Below, in pieces: positions 8,203 to 37,814 of a stretch of 64,000 nucleotides of DNA. The notes below the pieces were generated by a model that worked only from the letters and a program-made list of their open reading frames with translations, made no database searches and was not told where the DNA came from. The DNA is from Boletus sp. NGJ (taxonomy: Eukaryota; Basidiomycota; Agaricomycetes; Boletales; Boletaceae), in assembly GCA_019096195.1 (NCBI GenBank), contig JAGTXK010000141.1:124001-188000 (forward strand). Direction: 5' to 3'. Made by a program: the position numbers and the translations under genes. Every line of letters starts with the position of its first letter. Position 1 is the first letter of the stretch.

Positions 8203-8546
8203 GGTCTGCACCCACTCTGGAAGTGATATCACTTGTGCTTGTGATACATCTTCTCATTACCTCGCACTTGTGTGGTCTTCTTGTTATCCACAGACAGAAT
8301 TGTTCACATGCTTAATCAGCGGCAACACCAACACAGACAGGGTTCTGATCAAAGTCCAAGACTCTGCCATTGGTCATAGAGACATCCCTTATACTCAGAG
8401 GAGACTCTATGTAAAGCTAGCTGTTGGTACCCCATATCTAGGGAATTCAGGCCTAGGGAGCCATTTGCTCAAGTCCAGCTAGTCCAGTAATCAACTAGAA
8501 GGTCAATTACTCGGTAACATGTCACCAAGTTACGAAGGTTGTAACA
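8203..8546 (+). repeat. Right part of a second-family LTR interrupted by the chromovirus
   Basis: Aligns with the 3' portion of the complete LTR at 11346-12205 (GTCTGCACCCACTCTGGAAG to the end GGTTGTAACA). The bases TTCAG at 8198-8202 also precede the matching point in the complete copy. The chromovirus therefore seems to have inserted at TTCAG in this LTR, and the missing left part should lie beyond the window start. Confidence 0.85.
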
Positions 8547-8548
8547 CT

Positions 8549-8730
8549 TTCTCAAGTATGCAGAAACTAATCTTGGTGTTTCTAACGCTACTACATATGA
8601 GCACAAACTCACCACACAACACATTGGGCCAGATATCCTCTCCAAAATCAGTGACAAGACACTTTTGGACATTGGAATTCCAACTGGCAATATAATCTGT
8701 TTGAAAAAGGGTTGTACAGTTTGCATCAGT
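8549..8730 (+). pseudogene. Fragment of a SAM-like-domain accessory gene
   Basis: The plus strand reads a helical domain resembling sterile-alpha-motif proteins: YAETNLGVSNATTYEHKL, then IGPDILSKISDKTLLDIGIP and an ICLKKGC ending. I recall such C-terminal domains from agaricomycete hypothetical proteins, but cannot confirm this by search. The 5' part is cut off by the LTR at 8203-8546. The apparent continuation (12260-12561) lies beyond a Tc1 element, simple repeats and a solo LTR. It is convergent with the DDE transposase at 12690-13474. Confidence 0.5.
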
Positions 8731-8853
8731 AAAAACAGGACTAACTATCCAGTGCTGGACAGTACTGAATAGTAACATAGTGCTCATAGTGAGGGTCCAA
8801 CTGAATAGTGGTTTGATAGTACTATAACAATGTCTCATACTCTGTTCATAGTA

Positions 8854-10466
8854 CAGTGACTCCCAAAACTGTTCCAATATCTAACCCTGATGCAGTGCAT
8901 GAAGTGCACTGCAAACACCCATGGGAATTTCGCTTGGCTTTGGTGGGACAAATAATAGTACATACTCTTGGCTACCTATGGGCGCTTGGATCATGTGATT
9001 GGATCCAGAGGAAGTGGAGATATGGCTATTTTAAAACAGCAACTACATTGGAACAGTTTTGGAACTTTTGATTATCATAAGGGTATTTGGTATATATCAG
9101 TACTTGGTATATCCTCCTTTGGCTTTAAGCACTGCCTGAACCCTTCGAAGCATGCTTTCAATCAATCCCTGACACACCTCAGCTAGTATCTCATTCCATT
9201 TCTCCTGAGTTCTTCTCCACAACTCCTCTATTCCCTTAGGAGGCTCCTCATAGTCTGCCAGCTTCCTTTTGAGGTGAAGCCAGATATGTTCTATGGGATT
9301 GAGGTCAGGAGACTGTGCAGGCCATACCATGGTCCTAAATTTCTGCTCTTCCAGCCACTCCTTGACCTTTTTGCAAGTATGCTTGGAGTCATTATCTTGT
9401 TGAAAGATGACATTAGGAGGATTCAGATCATAGAACTCCAAGGAATCCTGGAGTTCATTCTTCAAAATTTGAAGGTAGAGATCACCATCCATCCTACCAT
9501 CAATCTTGGTTGCATAGCCAACCCCATCCCATGCCATACAGCCCCACAACATCAAAGAACCCCCTTCAAATTTCAAAGTCCCCTCAACTAATCTGTCACT
9601 AAGCCCCCCTCCTTGCTTTTTTCATGCCCATTTGCAACCATCTGACCCAAGACAATTGATTTTGGTCTCATCAGACCATATCACCTGCTTCCAGTCCTCT
9701 AGAGTCCAGTCCTTATGAGCATAAGCAAAGTCCAACTGAGCCTTGTGATGTTTGGTAGAGAGTAGTGGGTATTTGGACTTGACTATGGCTTTTATACCAA
9801 TCTTTTTCAAATGACAATAAACTGTATTAGGATGGAGAGGCTGGTTGGTGATAGTGGAGAGAGCTTTGGTGACCTGAACAGCATTCTCTGCCTTATTACT
9901 GGAGATAAGGTAAACAGCATGATGAATATTAACAGAGGAAAGCTTTGATGGACAGCCTCCAGTAGACTTTTGAAGGTCAGAACACTCCTTGGAACAAAGC
10001 CTAGAGATGGTAGCAATGCCAACACCTGTACTAGAGGCAATAGAGCAGATGGAATGGCCAGAATTAAGTTGAGAGAGGATAGTGTTTTTTTTGACTGGTA
10101 GAGAGAGATTGCATGATGGTAGTGGTTAAGAGTCAAGAAGTGTGGGAACATTTTTAGACTCAGACATGATATTTATATGTATATCTTTGTTTGTACCACC
10201 AAACAACAGCAATTATCCCCTTATATCATAAAGATTCTAATGCTCACATCAAAAGTCCCAAAACTATTCCAATGTAGTTGCTGTTTTAAAATAACCATAT
10301 CTCCACTTCCTCTAGATCAAATCACATGATCCAAGCGCCCATAGGTAGCCAAGGGTATGTACTATTATTTGTCCCACCAAAGCCAAGCGACATTTCCACA
10401 GGTGTTTGCAGTGTGCTTCACGCACTGCATCAGGGTTAGATATTGGAACAGTTTTGGGAGTCACTG
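8854..10466 (-). mobile_element. Tc1-like DNA transposon (copy 2)
   Basis: A 1613-bp element with ends CAGTGACTCCCAAAACTGTT and its reverse complement, flanked by TA (8852-8853 and 10467-10468). Inverted terminal repeats run about 217 bp (8854-9070 and 10249-10466). Each inner border carries an inverted copy of the terminal sequence. The transposase is on the minus strand. Same subfamily and exactly the same length as copy 3 (17675-19287), in opposite orientation. It sits in an ACTATGA-rich, low-complexity context. Confidence 0.94.
9097..10114 (-). pseudogene. Tc1-like DD34E transposase (copy 2), frameshifted
   Basis: Close relative of the copy-3 transposase. The catalytic pieces WSDETK, QQDNDSKHT and SPDLNPIEHIW are all present, with 34 residues between the second Asp and Glu. 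A start equivalent to that of copy 3 is at 10114. The frame is lost soon after the start in a run of A residues, and again around 9580-9620, between the GSDGCK and KFEGGSLMLWG segments. So it is a decayed but recognisable transposase, ending in KAKGGYTKY at 9097. No introns. Confidence 0.88.
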
Positions 10467-11345
10467 TATAGCCATAGTCTGTCATAGTATTCTCATAGTA
10501 TCTTATAGTGTCCCATAGTATTCTCATAGTATACATACTGTAGTGCTTCCATAGTGGCTTAGCAATCCTAATCCTAATCCTAATCCTAATCCAATTTCAA
10601 GCCAATTCTAATTTCAAATTCAATCAAATATTGATTCTATTAATTCTAATTCTAATCCCAGTCCCAATTCCAATTCCAATTCCAATCCTAATCCTAATCC
10701 TAATCCTAATCCTAATCCTAATGATTTACAAAGTGAAGTGTTGACTTCATGTAATGAGTAGAGAAGAATAAAATTAAGAAACAAAAGGGTGTGGGAATGT
10801 TTTTGAAGTCTGGCTTGTTTATATAAGAATGGTGGCACAAACATTGGCAAACAATGTCCGCTTTTTTAACACTGAGTGTGGGAAAATGGACTTGGATATT
10901 TTTTTTGAGTGTAGGTCTACACTTTTGGTACACATTGTGACTACACTTTTACTACACTTGGTGCGCATTTTTGGTACACTTTTAGTACACTTTGTTTGCT
11001 ACACTGTACTACACTCTGCTACACTTTTGTTTGCTTTTTTTTACTACACTCTATTTGCTACACTGTACTACACTGTTTCCTATACTTTTTGTACAACATT
11101 TGACTACATATTTGACTACACTTTTTGTGCACTTTTTGACTACACATTTTGTATGCTTTTGATTTAGGATTAGGATTAGGATTAGGATTAGGATTAGCTT
11201 AAAATTACTACTATGACTATGACTACTATGAATGTACTATGAAAGCTATGAAATGCTATATATGATACTATGATACTATGAACACTATGAATATATTATG
11301 GATACTATGAATACACTTTCAATACTATGATACTATGAACACTAT
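10467..11345. repeat. Low-complexity block with telomere-like and ACTATGA repeats
   Basis: No gene is evident. The block holds degenerate TCATAGTAT/ACTATGA units (10470-10550 and 11205-11345), two CCTAAT arrays (about 10564-10592 and 10684-10722), a degenerate TACACTTTT-rich stretch (about 10900-11160) and a TTAGGA array in the opposite sense (11164-11198). Apparent reading frames of repeated Leu-Gly and Leu-Glu here are just translations of the hexamer array. Confidence 0.85.
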
Positions 11346-12205
11346 TGTTACAGACAATGAACAGGGTACACCTTTTTTCCTCTCTTTCGTACTCCCTCCA
11401 TCCCCAGTCATCGATGACTTATGGGGAGACCTTTTGTTTGACTCCTCTGAAATGACATGGGGAAGCTTCCTCATGGGAGAATACCTAGCACTTAGTACTT
11501 CCCTCAATGACACTACCTTCTAGGGCGGTGAACAGCCATCTATGAGATCCCAGATCTCTCCAATGGCTATCCTCTCCATTCTGTGTCTCTTTCATTTCCC
11601 ATTTTACTCTTAACCTATGCTTCATATCAGACACTGCCTCCTTGACTATGCTCTCTCATACATAGCCTGTATTCCATCACTTCCAGCCTCGTTCCTCATT
11701 CAGTTCTCCTTTCCACTTATGGTAACTCTGCTTATACCTGCCCCTAAGAGGCAAAGCCCTATATATAGTCAGTTGATCCCCCTGTATCTCCCAACCTTGA
11801 TCTACACCACATCCCATATAATCTACCCAACTCCAGGTTCCACATTACTTCAGACGTCTGCACCCACTCTGGAAGTAATCACCCTAGTGCTTGTGATACT
11901 TCTCATATTTACATCACACTTGTGTGATATCCTTGCTATCTCCTCGTGCGCTTAATCAGCGACAACACCAATGCAGACAGGTTCTGCACTGATAGGACTG
12001 CACCACTATCTTCAAAGCCCAAGACTCTGCCATTGGTCATAGAGAGACTCCAACCCCAGGGGAGACTCTACATAAAGCTAGCTGTCAGTCCCCATACCTA
12101 GGGAACTTGGGCCTAGGGAGCCATTTGCTCAAGTCCAGCTAGTCCAGTAATCAACTAGGAGGTCAATTACTCAGAAACGTGTCACCAAGTTACGAGGTTG
12201 TAACA
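11346..12205 (+). repeat. Solo LTR (second family), with target duplication
   Basis: An 860-bp LTR with TGTTACA and TGTAACA ends, flanked by ACTAT on each side (11341-11345, 12206-12210). It carries a TATATATAG TATA-like box near 11760. No internal domain accompanies it. Strand is arbitrary for a solo LTR and is given in the orientation shared with 13475-14364. Confidence 0.92.
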
Positions 12206-12259
12206 ACTATGAGTTATCTATGAAACTACTATGGCACTATGAGCACTATGATGAAATCC

Positions 12260-12561
12260 TGTATTTACTGATGTGGTGGAATGGTCCCAATGCGAAGTGG
12301 AAGTGTAGCAATACTAATCAAAGCTCAACAAGCAAGTCAAGGTCACCTACCCATCCACTCCAGAAAAAATTCGCCTATAAGAAGAAGTATCATGATGGCT
12401 GCTGCTTCTGCTTTACTGCATCTCCAATGATGATGATGGACCAAGGGACTATGATCTCTGATACCAGGCAACAGATCACAGCATTTGGCTTCTAGTTCCA
12501 AAGGGATTTATTGTTTGTGAGGATGCTGAGGAGAATGAGGGTAGCTTTTTCAATAACTAGA
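12260..12561 (+). pseudogene. C-terminal fragment of the SAM-like-domain accessory gene
   Basis: Plus-strand text includes WWNGPNAKWKC, a KKFAYKKKYHDG segment, and an end reading VPKGFIVCEDAEENEG before a stop at about 12561. The frame shifts once near 12490. I read it as the continuation of the gene whose domain remains at 8549-8730. The two pieces are separated by later insertions. It is convergent with the transposase at 12690-13474. Confidence 0.4.
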
Positions 12562-12689
12562 ACAATATTGCCAGTATTTCCATGTTACTTAGCATCTGGT
12601 TCAAAGTTCAAATGCAATGCTATCACTCCAATGACTCTGTTTGATCAGATAACAATTGATTACGACAGTCCTAAGTCCATTTCAACTAT

Positions 12690-13474
12690 ATGATATAACC
12701 CAATGCTCTAAAATAACCTTCTGCTTTGTCAGGAGTGATGTTCTGACAAGCACAAGCAATTGCAGTCATCAAGAAGTCATCACAGTGGTGCCGAAAATAT
12801 GCCTTGATAGCAGAGAAGGCTTGCTCAATGAAATTGTAATCAGGGAAGTAAGGAGGGAGGAAAATGAGTTTGCAAACTAATGGTGGTTAGTACATGAAGA
12901 ACGATGCATTGATGACATATGATGCATTTCTTCAATCAGCACATGGACCTTCTCACCATGGTGGATGCAACAATTGTTCATGACAGGTACACTGCAGGAA
13001 CCTGGATATGGATTGGTGAATGGCATCTGTAGCAAAAATGTATTGATGAAATATACAAACAATGCACCACATGTTCATTCAAAAAACTCAAAAAATGCTT
13101 ACTGTCAACCAGTCCCTCAACAATGTTGTATGTGATGATGCCATTAAAAGTGATGGCAGGAATGATAGAAAATCTTGTGCCATGTACAAAGCACCTCTTG
13201 ACATGGCAACAAACTCCTCTTGTCAACCATCCATGTTGGCAGGTGGATGTTCGTTTATCCTTGGCAGCTTTGTCAATAAAAACAAGCATATTTGGATCTG
13301 GTGCTTCTGTGGCAATGCAGTTCATGTAAATTGCATGTGTCTCATCATTCTGCTCTGCAGCAGAAGAGGAAACAACCTTCCAGGTGATGGAAAGCTGCTG
13401 GAGCATTCAAAGAAGGGTAGAGAATGTAATGTACTTATGATGCTTAGCCCAAAGCTCACTTTGAAGCTCGTTGA
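12690..13474 (-). pseudogene. Decayed IS630/Tc1-type DDE transposase, C-terminal half
   Basis: The minus strand reads a DDE superfamily endonuclease: a FIDKAAKDKRT block (catalytic Asp), VMNNCCIHHGE (where the family normally has VMDNC) and FPDYNFIEQAFSAIKAYF (the normal family form is SPDYNPIEQAF; Glu kept). Introns or breaks separate these blocks. Many substitutions look like G-to-A or C-to-T changes (E to K, R to C, D to N, S/P to F). The N-terminal helix-turn-helix is absent; the frame meets the LTR at 13475 and I cannot find it beyond that LTR. Confidence 0.8.
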
Positions 13475-14364
13475 TGTTACAGTTATGGAAGGGGGTATAC
13501 CTTTTCCCCTTCCTTCACCCCCTCCTGGACTCTGGGACGACCTTCTCATCGACTCCTATGACTCAGGATTTCCCTGGGATTCCCCTACAATGCCCACACA
13601 AGCATCGCCTCACCTGGAACTCCCCTTCTAGATGATGCACCACCATGGCTGTGACATAGCCCATCCTATTTCATCAATATGCATTTCACCTCTTATCTGA
13701 TCATAGACATTGTCTTCTCGGTTGTGTTCTCTCATACACAGCCCAGTATTCCAAACTCCTCATTTGACTGATACCTTTGGTCCTTTTATGGTAATATTCA
13801 GTCTGCAACTTACTATTACCATATACGATATGAAGCCTGCCCTAGATCAGGGAGGTCTATATATATGGGTGTTCACCCTTTATGTAACTCTAACCTTAAT
13901 CTATACAATTCAACCTGGTGTAAGGTCATCTCCACCTCCTCACTGACTTCTGTTCCTAGAAGTCAAAGCTGGAAGCTGTGCTTCTTGTCCTGCTAGTGAT
14001 TGCTGTAATCACTAGCCTCATCCTTTGTCTTGCTGCCTATTGAGGTTGTAGGCAAGACCATCTTCCCCTATAGCAGACTGGGGTTATAAGAGGTGTCCAT
14101 ATCTACAGAGGTAGACAGATTGTAGAAGCCTCACAGAGCATATGTCGCCAATGGTTGCTGCTCTGAGTACATTGGGAGCTGGACATCATTGTCACTCACA
14201 TACTAAGTCTTGGTGGTCATCCAAGACTCTGAAAGCCTATTACAGTACTCGCTCGCTGCCCAAACCCTTGCCTATTTGAGGAAGGGAGAGTAACAGGTCT
14301 TGGTGGAACTCAGTTCACCTTCAGTTCACCAGGTCACGTGTCCCATTGTTACGAGGTTATAATA
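13475..14364 (+). repeat. Second-family LTR, diverged
   Basis: An 890-bp relative of 11346-12205. It starts TGTTACAGTTATGG and ends GAGGTTATAATA, a decayed form of the usual TGTAACA. The flanking pentamers GTTGA and GTCAA agree at only 3 of 5 positions, so a target duplication is not proven. A TATATATGG box lies near 13858. Confidence 0.8.
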
Positions 14365-14649
14365 GTCAAGGTAGATGGTACTCCAATACTAAATGACAGT
14401 AGAGATAAGAGCAACATCCACTGAGGTGAGTACTTGGGGGCAACTGGTAGTACAAGAGTACTTGTTTGGGTTTGTTATAGTTCCATATCTTGAGTACAAA
14501 GAGAGCATCTTGTAAATGAGTGACTTTTTGACACCCAATATGTGACAGATCTATTGGACACTATGGTCTTTATGATACAAGAGGGGGATGTGGGCTTTGA
14601 GGTCAGAAGATACAATGTGGCAGCATCCAGGCATAAGTGGTGGCAGCTT
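14365..14649. other. Unassigned stretch
   Basis: About 285 bases after the LTR with no recognisable coding or repeat family. Confidence 0.4.
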
Positions 14650-16336
14650 GCAAATCAACAATGCTTATTCAGCTGCAGGCTACCTAGTCAGCCACTTCCA
14701 GGATCCTTCTGCAGCTGTCTCTGAGGCACAACTTCCTGCAATGCATTTTCCACATACTGTAGGTAAACGCACTTATGGCCAATTTTTCTATTTGCTTGGA
14801 AACATCTGCTTGCGCTGCTGCTAAGAAATTCTCTGTCATCAAAACCATATCCTGTTTAAACTTCTCCAATGCATTGGCTTGCTGTGTGATCAGTGAATCC
14901 CTCTCAGCAACCATTGCCATGTATGATTGTGATTGCTCTCTGGATTGCTCAGAGACATAGGTGATGTCAGATTCCAGTTTCTTGATCATATTTTCCTGAA
15001 GGGCTATAACATGGTCTCTCTCCATAAAACCTTTCGCAAACTGGTCCTCCTGCCAGGAGATAATCAACTCCTTTGCTCCAAGATTGTTACACAGCTGATT
15101 AGTCTCCTACAAAAGGGGGGGATTTGAGTCAGTTGATCATAAAATCTGATGAAGAATACACCAGCAATGTTCTGTGTAAACATGACTTTAGATTGTACAA
15201 GGAATTGTGCATGTTATCCAAGTAATCAACCTCTTTCACAAGGATCTTGCAAAAACACTACACTCATGAATAACAATGAGCCTCACTTTGATGATCTTGT
15301 TTGCAATGTACCATGGAACCCTCAGACATATTATGGCATAACTCTGACTCAGGTAAATTCCTTTTTCTGCATTCCAGGATGGGAGCTGCCCACAGATTAG
15401 AAGAATCCATATCGATCTCAGGAGGTACATAATAACTAGCTGAAAGAGACATCATCACTTCAGGTGAGTTGATGCTCTCAGGTGTGTCCTCGAATGAGGA
15501 AGAAGAATTTCCTGACAGGGGGAGGTCAGGGCAATGTTATGAGATATTCAATGACTTACCTGTAGTAAAAGTAAAAGTACCAGGCAAGGAAGCAGCAGGA
15601 TTCGGTTGTGAACCACTAGTTGAACGCAATGATACAGATGATGTGGCAGAGAGTGGATCTGCCTCAAGACTGTCATGGCATGGGGCTGTGTCATCCAAGA
15701 TGCTCAACATGCTGGACGATTCTTTGTTCGGGGTTGAAAACAAGGAGCCAGTGGATACTGATCGTGGTTAGTGTCTGTTCTTGGAATACTGGAGAATGAA
15801 AATGAAAACAAAGGCATGGTGTCAGCCAAAACCAACAGTCTGTGATGAATAAATGCAGATGATGCTACCACCTGAATACAATAGCTCACTGATTTAGTAG
15901 TGATGGAACATTGCTCACATTGGAGGCTACCGCATAAATCTCCATCTCTAAGGGGACAATTTGGACTATATGCTATTTAGTGTCAAGGTATGATACAACG
16001 AATGGAGATAATACTTACAATGAAAACTGACGTTATCACCTGAATATAATAGATGATGGGGTGCGACGCGTGATAATAGACAACAAAGACTGCTGATCAC
16101 TATGACAACTGCTGATGACATGCTGTGCCAGGACTGGACAATGATAGACAACAAGATTGCAGATGAATGGTTAACCCAAACGTCAAGTAGCAACAATAAA
16201 TGGCTCACAGTTGTATGGCACATCACAACAACATACTGCACCAGTCACTGCCTTTAATTATATTTTGAATTTACTTTCTATGGGATGTTCAGCATTTGGA
16301 TGGTCACCAACTACATTGAATTTACTTTCTACAGAG

Positions 16337-32625: not shown

Positions 32626-32705
32626 TGCACAAGGCAGGAATGAGAGCAATGGGGGCATGCAATCTGAGGGTGGAAGCGAGGACAAATGAGAGGCGATATC
32701 GCTTA

Positions 32706-32785
32706 CAGCGCTGTGCAGAAAGCTTGAGATTATGCAATAAAAATCTGAGACGCGATGGTGGTTGGACAAAAAAGGATATTAGTAC
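32706..32785 (+). repeat. Left terminal inverted repeat of the two-gene transposon
   Basis: 80 bp from CAGCGCTGTGCAGAAAGC to GATATTAGTAC. It matches the right copy with about 4-5 differences, all transitions. Confidence 0.92.
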
Positions 32786-32833
32786 AATAGACAAGTATGA
32801 CTCGGAGTCTACTGCAGTGCTCATACACCTACA

Positions 32834-35059
32834 ATGGTCTATCACCAAATCGGTAACGACCTCAAGGAGTGTGCCCTTCGGCTTTGGAACCATGGATGGG
32901 ATCTCGGAGACATCTGTGAAGTGCTGGGAGTTTCAAGAAGTAGCTGCTACTGATGGCAACAAGTCTTTGAGGAACTCGGCACTGTCAATCGACCACCATC
33001 TCCTCTCGTTGGACGCACCCTACATGATTACTCGAGCAATCCTGGGAGCAATCGAAGACCTCTACCTGCAAGATCCCGACCTTTTCCTTGACAAGATCTG
33101 CACTTGGCTTGCTATCAAACACCATATCGAGATCTCGACATCAGCACTCTCTCGCAACCTGATTGATGCTGGGACTGACACGAAAAATGCTTCAGAAACT
33201 TGCTGAAATGATCACAGATGATACCACCTATTTATTAGCACCCCTATCTACACTTCCGCACTACCTGTAGACGATACACTCGCCTGCTACAACCAAACTC
33301 CATCCTAGCCTTGCCCCGCATACACCTAGAGTAGTCACTCACCATATTCGCCCCCATACGATACACCATACAACCGCACACACCTACGTACGCTTTCACT
33401 AGTCGTACCCTTGTCGTACCCACTACACTACAACACCAAGTAGCCTCACGGCTAAACCCCGGCTTCACAGCCACAAACAAGGCCCGCACGCCTATAAACT
33501 ACGTCTCCCCTCGTGGACCTACCTGATGCAGCGCTCGGTAGCCACACCACGTGACATAACGCCGTACAATGACAGAAACCCCTCTGTCATGTATATGCTC
33601 GTTACACGCACGACCCCCATAGACAGTACCTGACACAGAGCTCGGTACCCTACACAAGTACTAATCAGGAGCCCGCCTCCAGATCCTCGATCCCCGCTCG
33701 CCCCGATCCCTGGCCTACGCCACAAATCACACCCGATGCCATCCCACGATGCCACCACCAAGTACTAATCAAGCCCACGCTAGATTAACCAAAGTACTGA
33801 TCAGGCCAACGTCAGATCACAAGCACCTAGACAAGACCTGATCTGTCCCCCGATATGATCCCGTCTCGATACCCAATCCAACGATCACCCATGCGATGCC
33901 TTACACATCAGTCTTCTATTTCACTCTTGTCCCCATTCCTATTTAGTTTCCCTTTAGATATATCACACGTAGCCACGCCTAGAGCATTCCAGACTACCAT
34001 TTCACTTACATGCGCATACCACGCGCATCTCATTCCATCGTTTCTCTCTTTTGCCATTGGACACTAACATTCCCCCGTTCCTGTGATGTCATACCCAGTA
34101 CCCTACGACGTCATAGCACAGCACGGTCCGTGCGCCACTATCGGTAGTATATAAGTAGCCGGTAGAGTACCCTGTTTCCCCTAGCCTTGAAATTGCTCTT
34201 CTCTCTGTCGCATATTGCTTTAGCTAGCAACGCTTCAGATATTGAGTCTAGGTTTCTTTCTTTCATCCATTGTAGGTTCCTTTCACTTGCTTTGGAGTGC
34301 AATGAGGTTCAACGTGAGAAATTCAAGCAAACCCTTTGAACAGATTTCCTAGGTGATGGATCTGAGTTCGTTGTTGTTGATGAAGCAAGCAAAAATGATT
34401 GAACCTATGCACGACATTTTGGATGGGCTGTGCAGGGACAACGTGCACAGATCCGAGATGTTTTCATCCATGAAACTCAGTACTCGTTATGTACAGCTAT
34501 AACAGTCGATGGATACCTTGCAGCTCGGGTAGTAGAAAGCTCATATGATGCTGAAGATTTCTATGATTTCATTGCTCAAGACATCGTGAGTACATAGAAT
34601 TTTCTTCAAGTTGTATTCTATGACCCAAGATTTATCCTGTTAGCTCCCACACATGAATCTGTATCCCCAGGAACGCTCTATACTTGTTCTTGACAACTGC
34701 CAGATCCATCATAATCAAGACCTTGTTGATCTTGTTGACAGAGCAGGTCTGTCTGAGTCTCTTGTATCAGATTACCTACATACTAGTACATCTTACCTTC
34801 TCAAGGTTGTCTTATACTCTTCCTTCTGCCTTACTCTCCTGATCTTACACCAATTGAGGAATCATTTAGTACTTGTGTGTGTTCCTTCAAAGTATAAAGA
34901 TACTTACTACACATTCATCTAGTCAAGGCTTACATTCAGCACTGTGGTCATGAGTTACGAACACATGAGGATCCCATTCAAATGTTACTTGAAGCTACTG
35001 CATGTATTACTGGCGAGAAAGCACAGGGGTTTAGAAATGCTGGATACATCACGGAATAA
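32834..35059 (+). pseudogene. IS630/Tc1-type DDE transposase of the two-gene transposon
   Basis: The start ATG at 32834 opens a helix-turn-helix N-terminus (QIGNDLKECALRLWNHGWD, then DICEVLGVSRSS). The N-terminal part runs to 33203 and resumes after the nested LTR at 34286 (KFKQTL). The catalytic domain shows EFVVVDEASKND (first Asp), a short intron (about 34587-34643, GTGAGT to TTAG), RSILVLDNCQIHHNQD (second Asp), a probable second intron, and LPYSPDLTPIEESF (Glu). The C-terminus is HCGHELRTHEDPIQ and ends with stop TAA at 35057-35059. In-frame stops (for example within the helix-turn-helix, about 32950, and near 34395) and a frame change about 33020-33040 show it is dead. It is convergent with the accessory gene, their ends 48 bp apart. 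Confidence 0.82.
33204..34285 (+). repeat. Solo LTR nested in the transposase, with CTTGC duplication
   Basis: 1082 bp with TGAAA and TTTCA ends, flanked by CTTGC on both sides (33199-33203 and 34286-34290). It contains a TATATAAG box near 34149, and three AGTACTRATCA units (about 33657, 33756, 33792). No internal retroelement domains. The LTR family is different from the other two in the window. Orientation follows the TATA-like box. Confidence 0.88.
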
Positions 35060-35107
35060 ACAGCATGTGCCATAGAAGTGAATGTATGCTGCAAAAACAG
35101 TTGTCAC

Positions 35108-36937
35108 TTATGCTTGATGTAATTTGATTGACTTGCAAAACCTATAGTGGGCATCGAGGAATGCCTCCCAACCTAACTTTGTAAACTTCCCATAGTCTCT
35201 CCACTCTTTCTCCTCAAGCCTCTCAACACCACAGTGACCTGGGCAATATTTGAGCATTGCAAGCTTTCCCTCATCATTTTCTGAAATTCTGAACTGGGCA
35301 CAAAAGTCTGAGAGCAACACATTGTGAGATGTTGTTGTACCAGGCTAATACAAGCCAGTGGAGGATTGATACATAAATCCAGTACCAGCTGGTTGTTGAT
35401 ATGGATATGGAGCTGCCATAGGTGCCATGCCGCTGGCGGCAGGAATGAAGTGACCATGACTGTAAGGCAGGAGATAGTATGGTCTAGGAGGCCCAGGATA
35501 TCCATAAGGTGGCGGAGCATAGCCCAGTGGCACAGAATAGTATTCCATGTGAGGAGGTCCATTAGCCACTGGCAGAAAAGTGATAGGATCTGTTGAAGGA
35601 TTTGCTTTTTGTGGTGACGTCGTAATATTCAGGACTTTCTTGAGTCACTTGTTCACAGAGAAATGCTAAGAGTTCGGTGGAGCTGAGACATCTGCTGTTC
35701 CAGCAGCCTACAATGATCAAACCATTATCAGTAATATGACAAGCTGAATAAAATGTCTACCTACAATAGCATTGGCCCAAAATTCGATTCAATAGGGCGT
35801 CAGCTCAAAATAGCTTTCAGTTGTGTTGTTTTTCCATACGCGCTTGTCAGGAAAATCTCTAACATTTCCAATGGGATACTCTTTCATCAGCTTGGCCATG
35901 GCATCATCATGTTTTGCTGTCATGGCAGACTTTAGACGATCATCAGACATCCACAATACACTTTGGAATGATGCCATCAACTTACAATTACACTTTTGGT
36001 ATCTGCTGGTTCTTTGACACTATCGTCGTTGAAACCTGTGTGTCGATCTTGGCGATCACCACGAACAGTGACCCATTCCTATATTTTTTTCACTACATGA
36101 GCACATTGATCACATATATGCACTGGGTTTACATACACCGTTGTTGTCCTTTGATGGTTTTGGTGTATAAAGCCAGACAACAACATTGTTGGTTGCACAT
36201 TTTGCCTTGATGGCATGAAGAAGTGCTTGAAATCCTGTCTTGTCAGCTACCTTCTTGTGAGGAGCAGAGTGGGGCTGCCCCTCAAACTTCCACTCAAATT
36301 TTGGCACTGGAAGAAGACTGAAATCGCAGGAAAGAATAGATGAGACTTCCGTTTTGAATTTTGCAAAAGACTATGCTGTATTGAATAAAAATGGACCTTT
36401 CGACACAAACAAGGTTGTTGTCGTCATCTTGGAACCTTGCCCCATTTTCTTCTCGAGCACTGGTGTGATCTGATAGACTTGAATGTAAACAGTGAATACA
36501 CAAGGAGGCTCTTTCTTGTCTGATTCATTGTCATGGATACCTTTATCTTTTGTGTTATCTGCCTCTGCATCAGCTACCTTCCATTTCTTCAGTGGAGCAC
36601 TGCAATTAGCGTGATCTTCGACAATTGTGTTGCTAGTACCGAAATACGAAGGGGTGTGATTGATGAAGTGGAGGCCTCCTGCAGAGATCACTTCACCACT
36701 AAGCTGCAGCTCCAACTCTGAGTCCTCCCCAATGACACAAACACTTGCTGGGGATTGGGGTGGGTCTGAAAGTGGTGGGCTTCCTCACTCTGAGTTCGGC
36801 AGGACCACAGCTGAATCTCTTGAAGGCTGCACAGGAACCTTGATGGTGAGCTTCAAGTTCTCCATGTGGCTAGTGCCAGCTGTCACCATAGATGTGGTAC
36901 ATTTTGCAGGCTTTGTGGTGCGTTTTCTCTTGGTCAT
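35108..36937 (-). pseudogene. Accessory gene of the two-gene transposon
   Basis: Not a family I can name. The start at 36937 reads MTKRKRTTKPAKC. Exon-like blocks follow: a long block to about 36140 (with VYQITPVLEKKMGQGSK, FEWKFEGQPHSAPHKKV and KCATNNVVVWLYTPKPS), one at about 35970-35760 (KEYPIGNVRDFPDKRVW, then YFELTPYRIEFWANAI), a Pro/Tyr/Gly-rich linker (APPPYGYPGPPRPYYLLPYS, about 35510) and a C-terminal helical domain at 35330-35108 (LLSDFCAQFRISENDEGKLA, then EWRDYGKFTKLGWEAFLDAH). One in-frame TGA near 36787 and a stop before the last domain suggest decay, though the latter could be spliced out. The layout resembles the gene at 24.4-26.0 kb. It could be a DNA-binding or transposition partner; that is inference only. 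Confidence 0.6.
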
Positions 36938-36999
36938 GCTGATTGACGTGGAGCAAATGAGCTTTAGAGTACAGAGATGACACTAGTACATTGGTCACA

Positions 37000-37079
37000 G
37001 TACTGATATCCTTTTTTGTCCAACCACCGTCGCATCTCGGATTTTTATTGCATAATCTCAAGCTTTCTGCACAGCGCTG
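37000..37079 (-). repeat. Right terminal inverted repeat of the two-gene transposon
   Basis: Reverse complement of 32706-32785, ending CTGCACAGCGCTG before the TA duplication. The match includes the inner GATATCAGTAC end. Confidence 0.92.
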
Positions 37080-37081
37080 TA

Positions 37082-37814
37082 AGCACAATTGACCGCATTC
37101 GGACTGTTCAAAGTGCCGGTGCAGCATGATAATGGGTCACTTTGGGTCATCATGTTCATTGTTCATTTCCTCACCATTTCATACTTTCTAGACCTTATAA
37201 CCTGATAGTAATGCTACAGTACCATACATCCCATATATCTGATCTAGTCTATTTGTGGTGTTGTGTTTTCTATGTGACTTACAAATTCATTGTTCAAAGT
37301 GCCAGTGGATGACTGTGATTCATGATGAGGAACTCTAACAATCGACGTAATCGATGTCCAATATGTGTCACGCATGACCAATGTCCAATCGGTGGAAGCG
37401 AGATAAGGAACGCCGCAGCGTTCGTGTCGTAAACGAAGAGGTGGAACTGTAGGCCCAGCTTCAAGATTCCGGAAAAGTGGGACACAGCACAGCACAGGTG
37501 TGTGGTATTTTTACTTGATGATCTGCTCTTCCATGCGATTTGTGGCATTACACCATGCATAGCGAACAATATGCTTCAGGCCAAGCCGGGCCTGAACAAC
37601 ACTACCAGCAATGGTTCACGACGCACCCCGTGCACGTCCATATGGTTGACTTGCGTCGATTGCAAGAAGATCTTAAAGCTCTCCATATTCTTGAGAGTGA
37701 GATATCAATCCAGTTCCTGGTGGGGCAACTTTACCACCAACTTCAGCTAAGAATGTCACCGCTGAATCGATAAGTTATTCGAGCAGGCTCAGCCACGGTT
37801 GTGTGTAACAGAAC
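37082..37814. other. Unassigned stretch with a duplicated segment
   Basis: An open frame at about 37546-37773 (PEQHYQQWFTTHPVHVHMVD) is the only coding-like text. A diverged version of the same DNA recurs at 49950-50270, upstream of WD40 gene C. I see no known domain. Confidence 0.4.

Follow-up and report, generated by a model that had tools for sequence, protein, structure and literature searches.

A two-gene IS630-Tc1-mariner element in Boletus sp. NGJ carries a convergent accessory gene that is kept by selection and is probably a transposition partner

In this study, we show that a 4.4-kb element in a 64,000-nucleotide stretch of Boletus sp. NGJ DNA (contig JAGTXK010000141.1, positions 124,001 to 188,000; hereafter the window, in whose coordinates positions are given) carries a transposase gene and a second, accessory gene that converge on each other, that two separate insertions each hold both genes within the same ends, and that the genes are inherited together and are kept by selection. 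Moreover, a sister clade of elements in the same genome follows the same plan. The element is, in our view, probably a cut-and-paste transposon that belongs to the IS630-Tc1-mariner group and has two convergent genes, the accessory serving as a partner in transposition. It is close to certain that the accessory belongs to the element as a part kept by selection; the chances that it acts directly in transposition we put at about even. IS630-Tc1-mariner elements carry one gene as a rule, and Tc1/mariner transposases are known to act alone, which led to their adoption as genetic tools. All genome searches and counts given here refer to one genome of 32.8 Mb, in which copies of these elements are mostly decayed. 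The features of the window element (copy 1) are as follows, copy 2 and the C117 remnant being described further below.

32704 to 32705, no strand: TA of the left flank (T TA / CAG), directly outside 32706
32706 to 32785, forward strand: left terminal inverted repeat (TIR), 80 nt, 95% complementary to 37000-37079
32834 to 35059, forward strand: transposase gene of IS630/Tc1 type, intron-split and broken, with weak DDE_3 matches; exons 64% and 55% identical to copy 2; frames read by eye
33204 to 34285, no strand: solo long terminal repeat (LTR) within the transposase, with TG..CA ends and CTTGC duplicated at 33199-33203 and 34286-34290
34403 to 34597, forward strand: transposase exon with DDE_3 domain, E 7.2e-5; relatives among the genome-wide exon matches
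34644 to 34747, forward strand: transposase exon with LDN (second catalytic D), from the DDE_3 match and the comparison with copy 2
35108 to 36937, reverse strand: accessory gene, multi-exon, with two premature stops; homologous exons in C45/C52 and C117; pN/pS 0.37
35108 to 35344, reverse strand: C-terminal region of the accessory, its best conserved part, 67% identical to copy 2; pN 0.19 against pS 0.73
35345 to 35570, reverse strand: proline/tyrosine-rich stretch of the accessory, 41% identical to copy 2 and to C117
36110 to 36600, reverse strand: conserved central region of the accessory, 44-76% identical to copy 2, outside known Pfam families
37000 to 37079, reverse strand: right TIR, complementary to the left arm
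37080 to 37081, no strand: TA of the right flank, directly outside 37079

The layout is the one that a first-pass annotation of this DNA had described. The 80-bp inverted ends with TA on both sides were recovered (the inverted arms as a whole, 32701-32785 and 37000-37084, span 85 nt at 95% complementarity), and the transposase, said to begin about 50 bp inside one end, has its ATG at 32834, 49 bp inward from the left TIR. The multi-exon second gene, placed about 60 bp inside the other end, has its ATG at 36937, 62 bp inward from the right TIR, and the two genes do converge in the middle, with stops at 35059 (transposase) and 35108 (accessory) that are 48 bp apart. With the end as query against the genome (E <= 0.001), only the two window arms were retrieved, at E 2.7e-46 and 3.8e-32, and a chance pairing of the arms is therefore excluded; the ends of copy 2, 72-75% identical to those of the window, fall below the threshold of that search. 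TTA/CAG was found at six of six ends, those of the window element, of the C45/C52 copy and of the sister-type element L064, each thus having TA on both flanks, and this suggests insertion into TTAA. The usual marks of the IS630-Tc1-mariner group, namely TIRs, TA flanks and a DDE_3/Tc1-type transposase, are all present; the single gene, which is usual and not defining, is replaced by two. Both DDE_3 matches of the transposase (34403-34597, and 34644-34922 at E 0.0037) stay under the Pfam cut-off, and the D of LDN is 34 residues from the E of PIEE, provided that the intron is placed, by eye, at AG/GT..AG/GT.

The accessory travels with the element, as the first-pass annotation had supposed. At the end of contig C45 lie a TIR, exons of the transposase and one half, the 3' one, of an accessory; contig C52 opens with the remaining half of the same accessory exon and runs on to a second TIR. 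The two ends adjoin within a few codons of one exon, with no exact overlap, and we infer that they are parts of one element, copy 2. The order TIR-transposase-accessory-TIR is common to copies 1 and 2, and their 1.2-kb flanks have no similarity to each other, so the two are separate insertions. A third remnant, in C117, holds a 3' piece of the transposase and a convergent accessory; no TIRs were found at it. Three pieces of the accessory used as genome queries (E 0.01, 1 and 1) led back to the same three places only, all beside window-type transposase sequence, and no homologue was met that would pass for an ordinary host gene.

Comparison of copies 1 and 2 argues that the accessory was conserved at the protein level while the two diverged. 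Because synonymous sites are near saturation, the raw ratio of nonsynonymous (pN) to synonymous (pS) differences was used. It is 0.37 for the accessory (pN 0.264, pS 0.722; 316 codons), excluding the proline/tyrosine-rich stretch, which by itself gives pN 0.36 and pS 0.59, and it is 0.33 for the transposase (pN 0.188, pS 0.564; 140 codons). The same accessory alignment read in its two shifted frames gives 0.98 and 1.36, and it is against these values that the ratio of 0.37 points to a protein under purifying selection. The accessory might still be a chance neighbour, that is, an unrelated gene or a nested insertion caught between unrelated ends, in a region rich in nested insertions such as the solo LTR. 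However, order, orientation and spacing are repeated in a separate insertion, and we reject this reading insofar as C45 and C52 make up one element, and on account of the third remnant, the flanks and the selection as well; of all the explanations considered it is the least probable.

The window copy itself is dead and cannot work as it stands, because a solo LTR lies within its transposase, the transposase has stop codons and frame changes (by eye), and two stops fall in frame within the accessory (TGA at 36785-36787 and TAG at 36371-36373). The accessory frame is also interrupted by short intron-like gaps, again by eye. The solo LTR, which is absent from the first-pass annotation, has relatives of about 1 kb, 86-91% identical, at 39 further places (40 of 254 candidates were scored), and it is a later insertion, foreign to the original element.

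The two-gene plan is not confined to the window type. The DDE exon of the window transposase has 26 matches in the genome, two of them the window-type copies and 24 at further places. In L064, a 10-kb stretch around one of these matches, there are 131-nt ends that are 81% alike, a transposase and, on the opposite strand, a second gene that converges with it. The transposases of this sister clade are intron-split. The C-terminus of this sister-type (B) accessory occurs at 33 places, which were compared with 34 transposase exons (32 from one search and two added from the DDE exon search). A convergent transposase exon lies less than 2 kb from 20 of the 33, in 17 cases at 699-824 bp; counted by transposase exon (n = 34), 20 have a sister accessory within 2 kb, two are window-type exons with their own accessory, four have one at 3.4-6.4 kb and eight are without. 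Where both genes could be read, they are convergent in 15 of 16 loci, L008 being the exception. One sister-type end as query retrieved 22 ends, 10 of which form five pairs by position, and three of these pairs enclose both genes (C114:244023-248010, C22:1736210-1739253 and C22:2263636-2266730). Across 14 sister copies, two near-identical duplicates having been removed from 16, the distances between transposase proteins and those between accessory proteins are correlated with r 0.88, a value reached in none of 9999 permutations. With near-identical duplicates retained, pN/pS has a median of 0.43 in the C-terminus of the sister accessory, where 119 of 120 pairs among 16 copies fall below 1. The median is 0.48 in its middle, with 103 of 105 pairs among 15 copies below 1, and 0.38 in the DDE exon, with 248 of 253 pairs among 23 copies; the values in shifted frames are 1.00 and 0.99. 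The purifying selection for which a test had been proposed is thus seen in both types.

These findings bear on the reading of the accessory as a host gene that was captured once and is carried as a passenger, which would fit the presence of introns and the failure to find a known transposon domain in it. Against this stand the three window-type places, all beside window-type transposase sequence with none found elsewhere in the genome, and the convergent accessories under selection in two separate families. Copy 2, the third remnant, the flanks and the selection lead us to reject the passenger, to which we give hardly more credit than to the chance neighbour.

The two-gene types are also set apart from the ordinary Tc1-type elements of this genome. 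Of 410 candidate DDE_3 matches, 150 were scored, many of them with open frames of about 350 aa; of these 150 ordinary-type matches one has an accessory match within 3 kb, and this place, in C44, looks nested. In a rough tree built from about 95 residues and rooted on the one-gene type, both the window type, which groups with L006 and L007 (support 0.98), and the sister type stand apart from that type. L007 (C107), in the window-type clade, has a convergent proline/tyrosine-rich open reading frame (ORF); in L021 and L026 no such convergent ORF was found within the 1.5 kb examined. The conservation of an accessory in many related elements of this genome suggests that a usually one-gene group works here with a partner protein.

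As to what the accessory may do, a profile of 12 sister-type C-termini matched the yeast SLA1 chain 3idw with E 0.00086 over residues 5-59 of 72 (a 9-sequence profile gave E 0.067). The available text on this protein describes Sla1 SHD2 as a SAM fold with a tendency to form head-to-tail polymers, and SAM-type domains as general protein-interaction modules (PMC9499636). The accessory might be needed or helpful in bringing the two ends and the transposase together, or it might recruit a host factor. A scaffold role would be the likeliest, since the sister-type protein appears to end in a SAM-type domain like that of Sla1, which is known to self-associate. The same co-inheritance and selection would also fit an accessory that counters host silencing or repair from outside the transposition complex while still being a selected part of the element; general interaction modules of this kind would serve such a protein too, and transposon decay is heavy in this host, with stops in both copies. 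But nothing in the data points to a silencing target, and the window-type pieces have no Pfam family, and we consider this role unlikely. Still less likely is a self-limiting regulator, whether a repressor or a titrating partner of the transposase. The 48 bp between the convergent genes would permit antisense or read-through control, and the window type is low in copy number, yet selection that matches that on the transposase over a long divergence is less expected for a repressor.

A transposition partner remains the explanation that we prefer, although several findings weigh against it. Both window-type copies are broken and no working example was seen. Since ordinary Tc1 elements manage alone, it is not evident why a partner should be needed. 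The SAM match belongs to the sister type and not to the window type, whose accessory matched no SAM entry of Pfam or PDB (the best for its C-terminus is suc1, E 0.069); Pfam SAM models do not match the sister-type accessory either, and the C-terminal profiles of the two types do not align. The two accessory types share a plan, and our claim stops short of their being the same protein. Among the 33 sister-type accessory matches, eight have no transposase exon near, one has a neighbour on the same strand and four have a convergent exon 3.4-6.4 kb off. Lastly, two of the five sister-type end pairs (C89:11025-14704 and C114:493711-494935) enclose neither gene by the probes used; it is possible that these are non-autonomous derivatives. 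Ends that never enclosed the accessory would have spoken against its travelling with the element; it is enclosed in copy 2 of the window family and in three of the five sister pairs, and missed in the other two.

Searches for the identity of the accessory were otherwise negative. No Pfam family rose above chance level on the window-type pieces. Viral and prokaryote contigs were searched for relatives and yielded none. For the middle region of the accessory a ubiquitin-like fold was suspected by eye and was unsupported by PDB profile searches. These gave short matches only, to designed chains resembling beta-propellers (8prj with profile A2, E 1.5e-12; 8pra with profile A7, E 0.0033), of about 20 residues and with no stretch passing alone; they were set aside.

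Beside two other IS630 transposases, at 2172-2489 of L019 (C65) and 2160-2675 of L030 (C82), both in transposase-sense coordinates, there are convergent ORFs that look SAM-like by eye. The first matched SAM_TNK with E 0.022, below the cut-off, and the second had no Pfam match; neither had a useful PDB match, and each occurs once in the genome. As SAM-like accessories they are a lead only. A bolder proposal, which we offer tentatively and think rather more doubtful than not, is that a large fungal IS630-Tc1 branch depends on an ancient, obligate and co-evolving convergent partner, that the accessories in the slot downstream of its transposase (window, sister, and the single-copy C65 and C82 types) have diverged too far to align yet each end SAM-like, and that this arose independently of the solutions in ciliates and in PIF/Harbinger.

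The window holds one further two-gene element, a sister-type remnant:

8204 to 14753, no strand: sister (B) type two-gene remnant with nested insertions; accessory pieces on the forward strand at 8345-8721 and 12271-12351, transposase on the reverse strand with DDE exon at 13065-13238

Inside it are 221-nt inverted repeats (8852-9072 and 10248-10468, 94%, 1175 nt apart) that are probably another nested element. Runs of telomere-like CCTAAT/ATTAGG hexamers were observed at 10564-10722 and 11159-11197, in the contig interior.

A branch that keeps its second gene under selection as strong as that on the transposase makes the benefit of a partner testable, whether this lies in pairing the ends, choosing a target or evading control by the host. 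The accessory would also give a family to 'unknown' genes beside fungal transposases, and part of the unannotated gene content of such genomes would be accounted for. In a literature search of titles and abstract openings, we recognised no description of an accessory gene in fungal Tc1/IS630 elements.

The closest systems for comparison within this genome are its one-gene Tc1/mariner elements (L069 and L070), which share with the window element TIRs and a DDE_3 transposase, TA-type ends being seen in the window element. The TIRs of L069, about 1.6 kb apart, enclose an intronless ORF of 338 aa and nothing further of note, whereas the window element is 4.4 kb long with an intron-split transposase and the convergent accessory that L069 lacks. 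In the PIF/Harbinger elements Ping/Pong, the DDE transposase requires a second protein, ORF1, with a Myb-like domain, according to the available text (PMC9921582). The need for a second protein beside a DDE transposase is the likeness; the superfamily is another one, and ORF1 is Myb-like and not SAM-type. The yeast SHD2 domain of Sla1 (3idw) resembles the sister-type C-terminus over the length of the domain and differs in belonging to an endocytic adaptor, of which only one domain matches. Closer are the ciliate elements, here set side by side by their descriptions in the available text. TBE of Oxytricha is a Tc1/mariner element with three ORFs, a DD34E transposase, TIRs of about 80 bp and a reversed 22 kD ORF; dN/dS is 0.1-0.3 for all three ORFs, and in its ciliate host it has a very high copy number and a proposed role in genome rearrangement (PMC4724952, PMC7325037). 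Tec of Euplotes, likewise Tc1/mariner and DD34E, has three ORFs, one in the complement; its TIRs measure about 700 bp, and it has a site-specific recombinase (PMC7325037). The window element is like TBE in joining extra coding capacity to a Tc1/mariner transposase, in its TIRs of about 80 bp and in a reversed ORF, and like Tec in being a multi-ORF element with an ORF on the complement strand, from which the long TIRs, the recombinase and the ciliate host divide it. Of the set that defines TBE/Tec (three ORFs, a zinc-finger or recombinase ORF and a ciliate host), the window element has two genes in place of three, and no zinc-finger or recombinase family reached the Pfam cut-off in it (best zf-CCCH_7, E 0.11). 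As far as these descriptions go, ciliate TBE/Tec are the nearest precedent for extra genes in the IS630-Tc1-mariner group.

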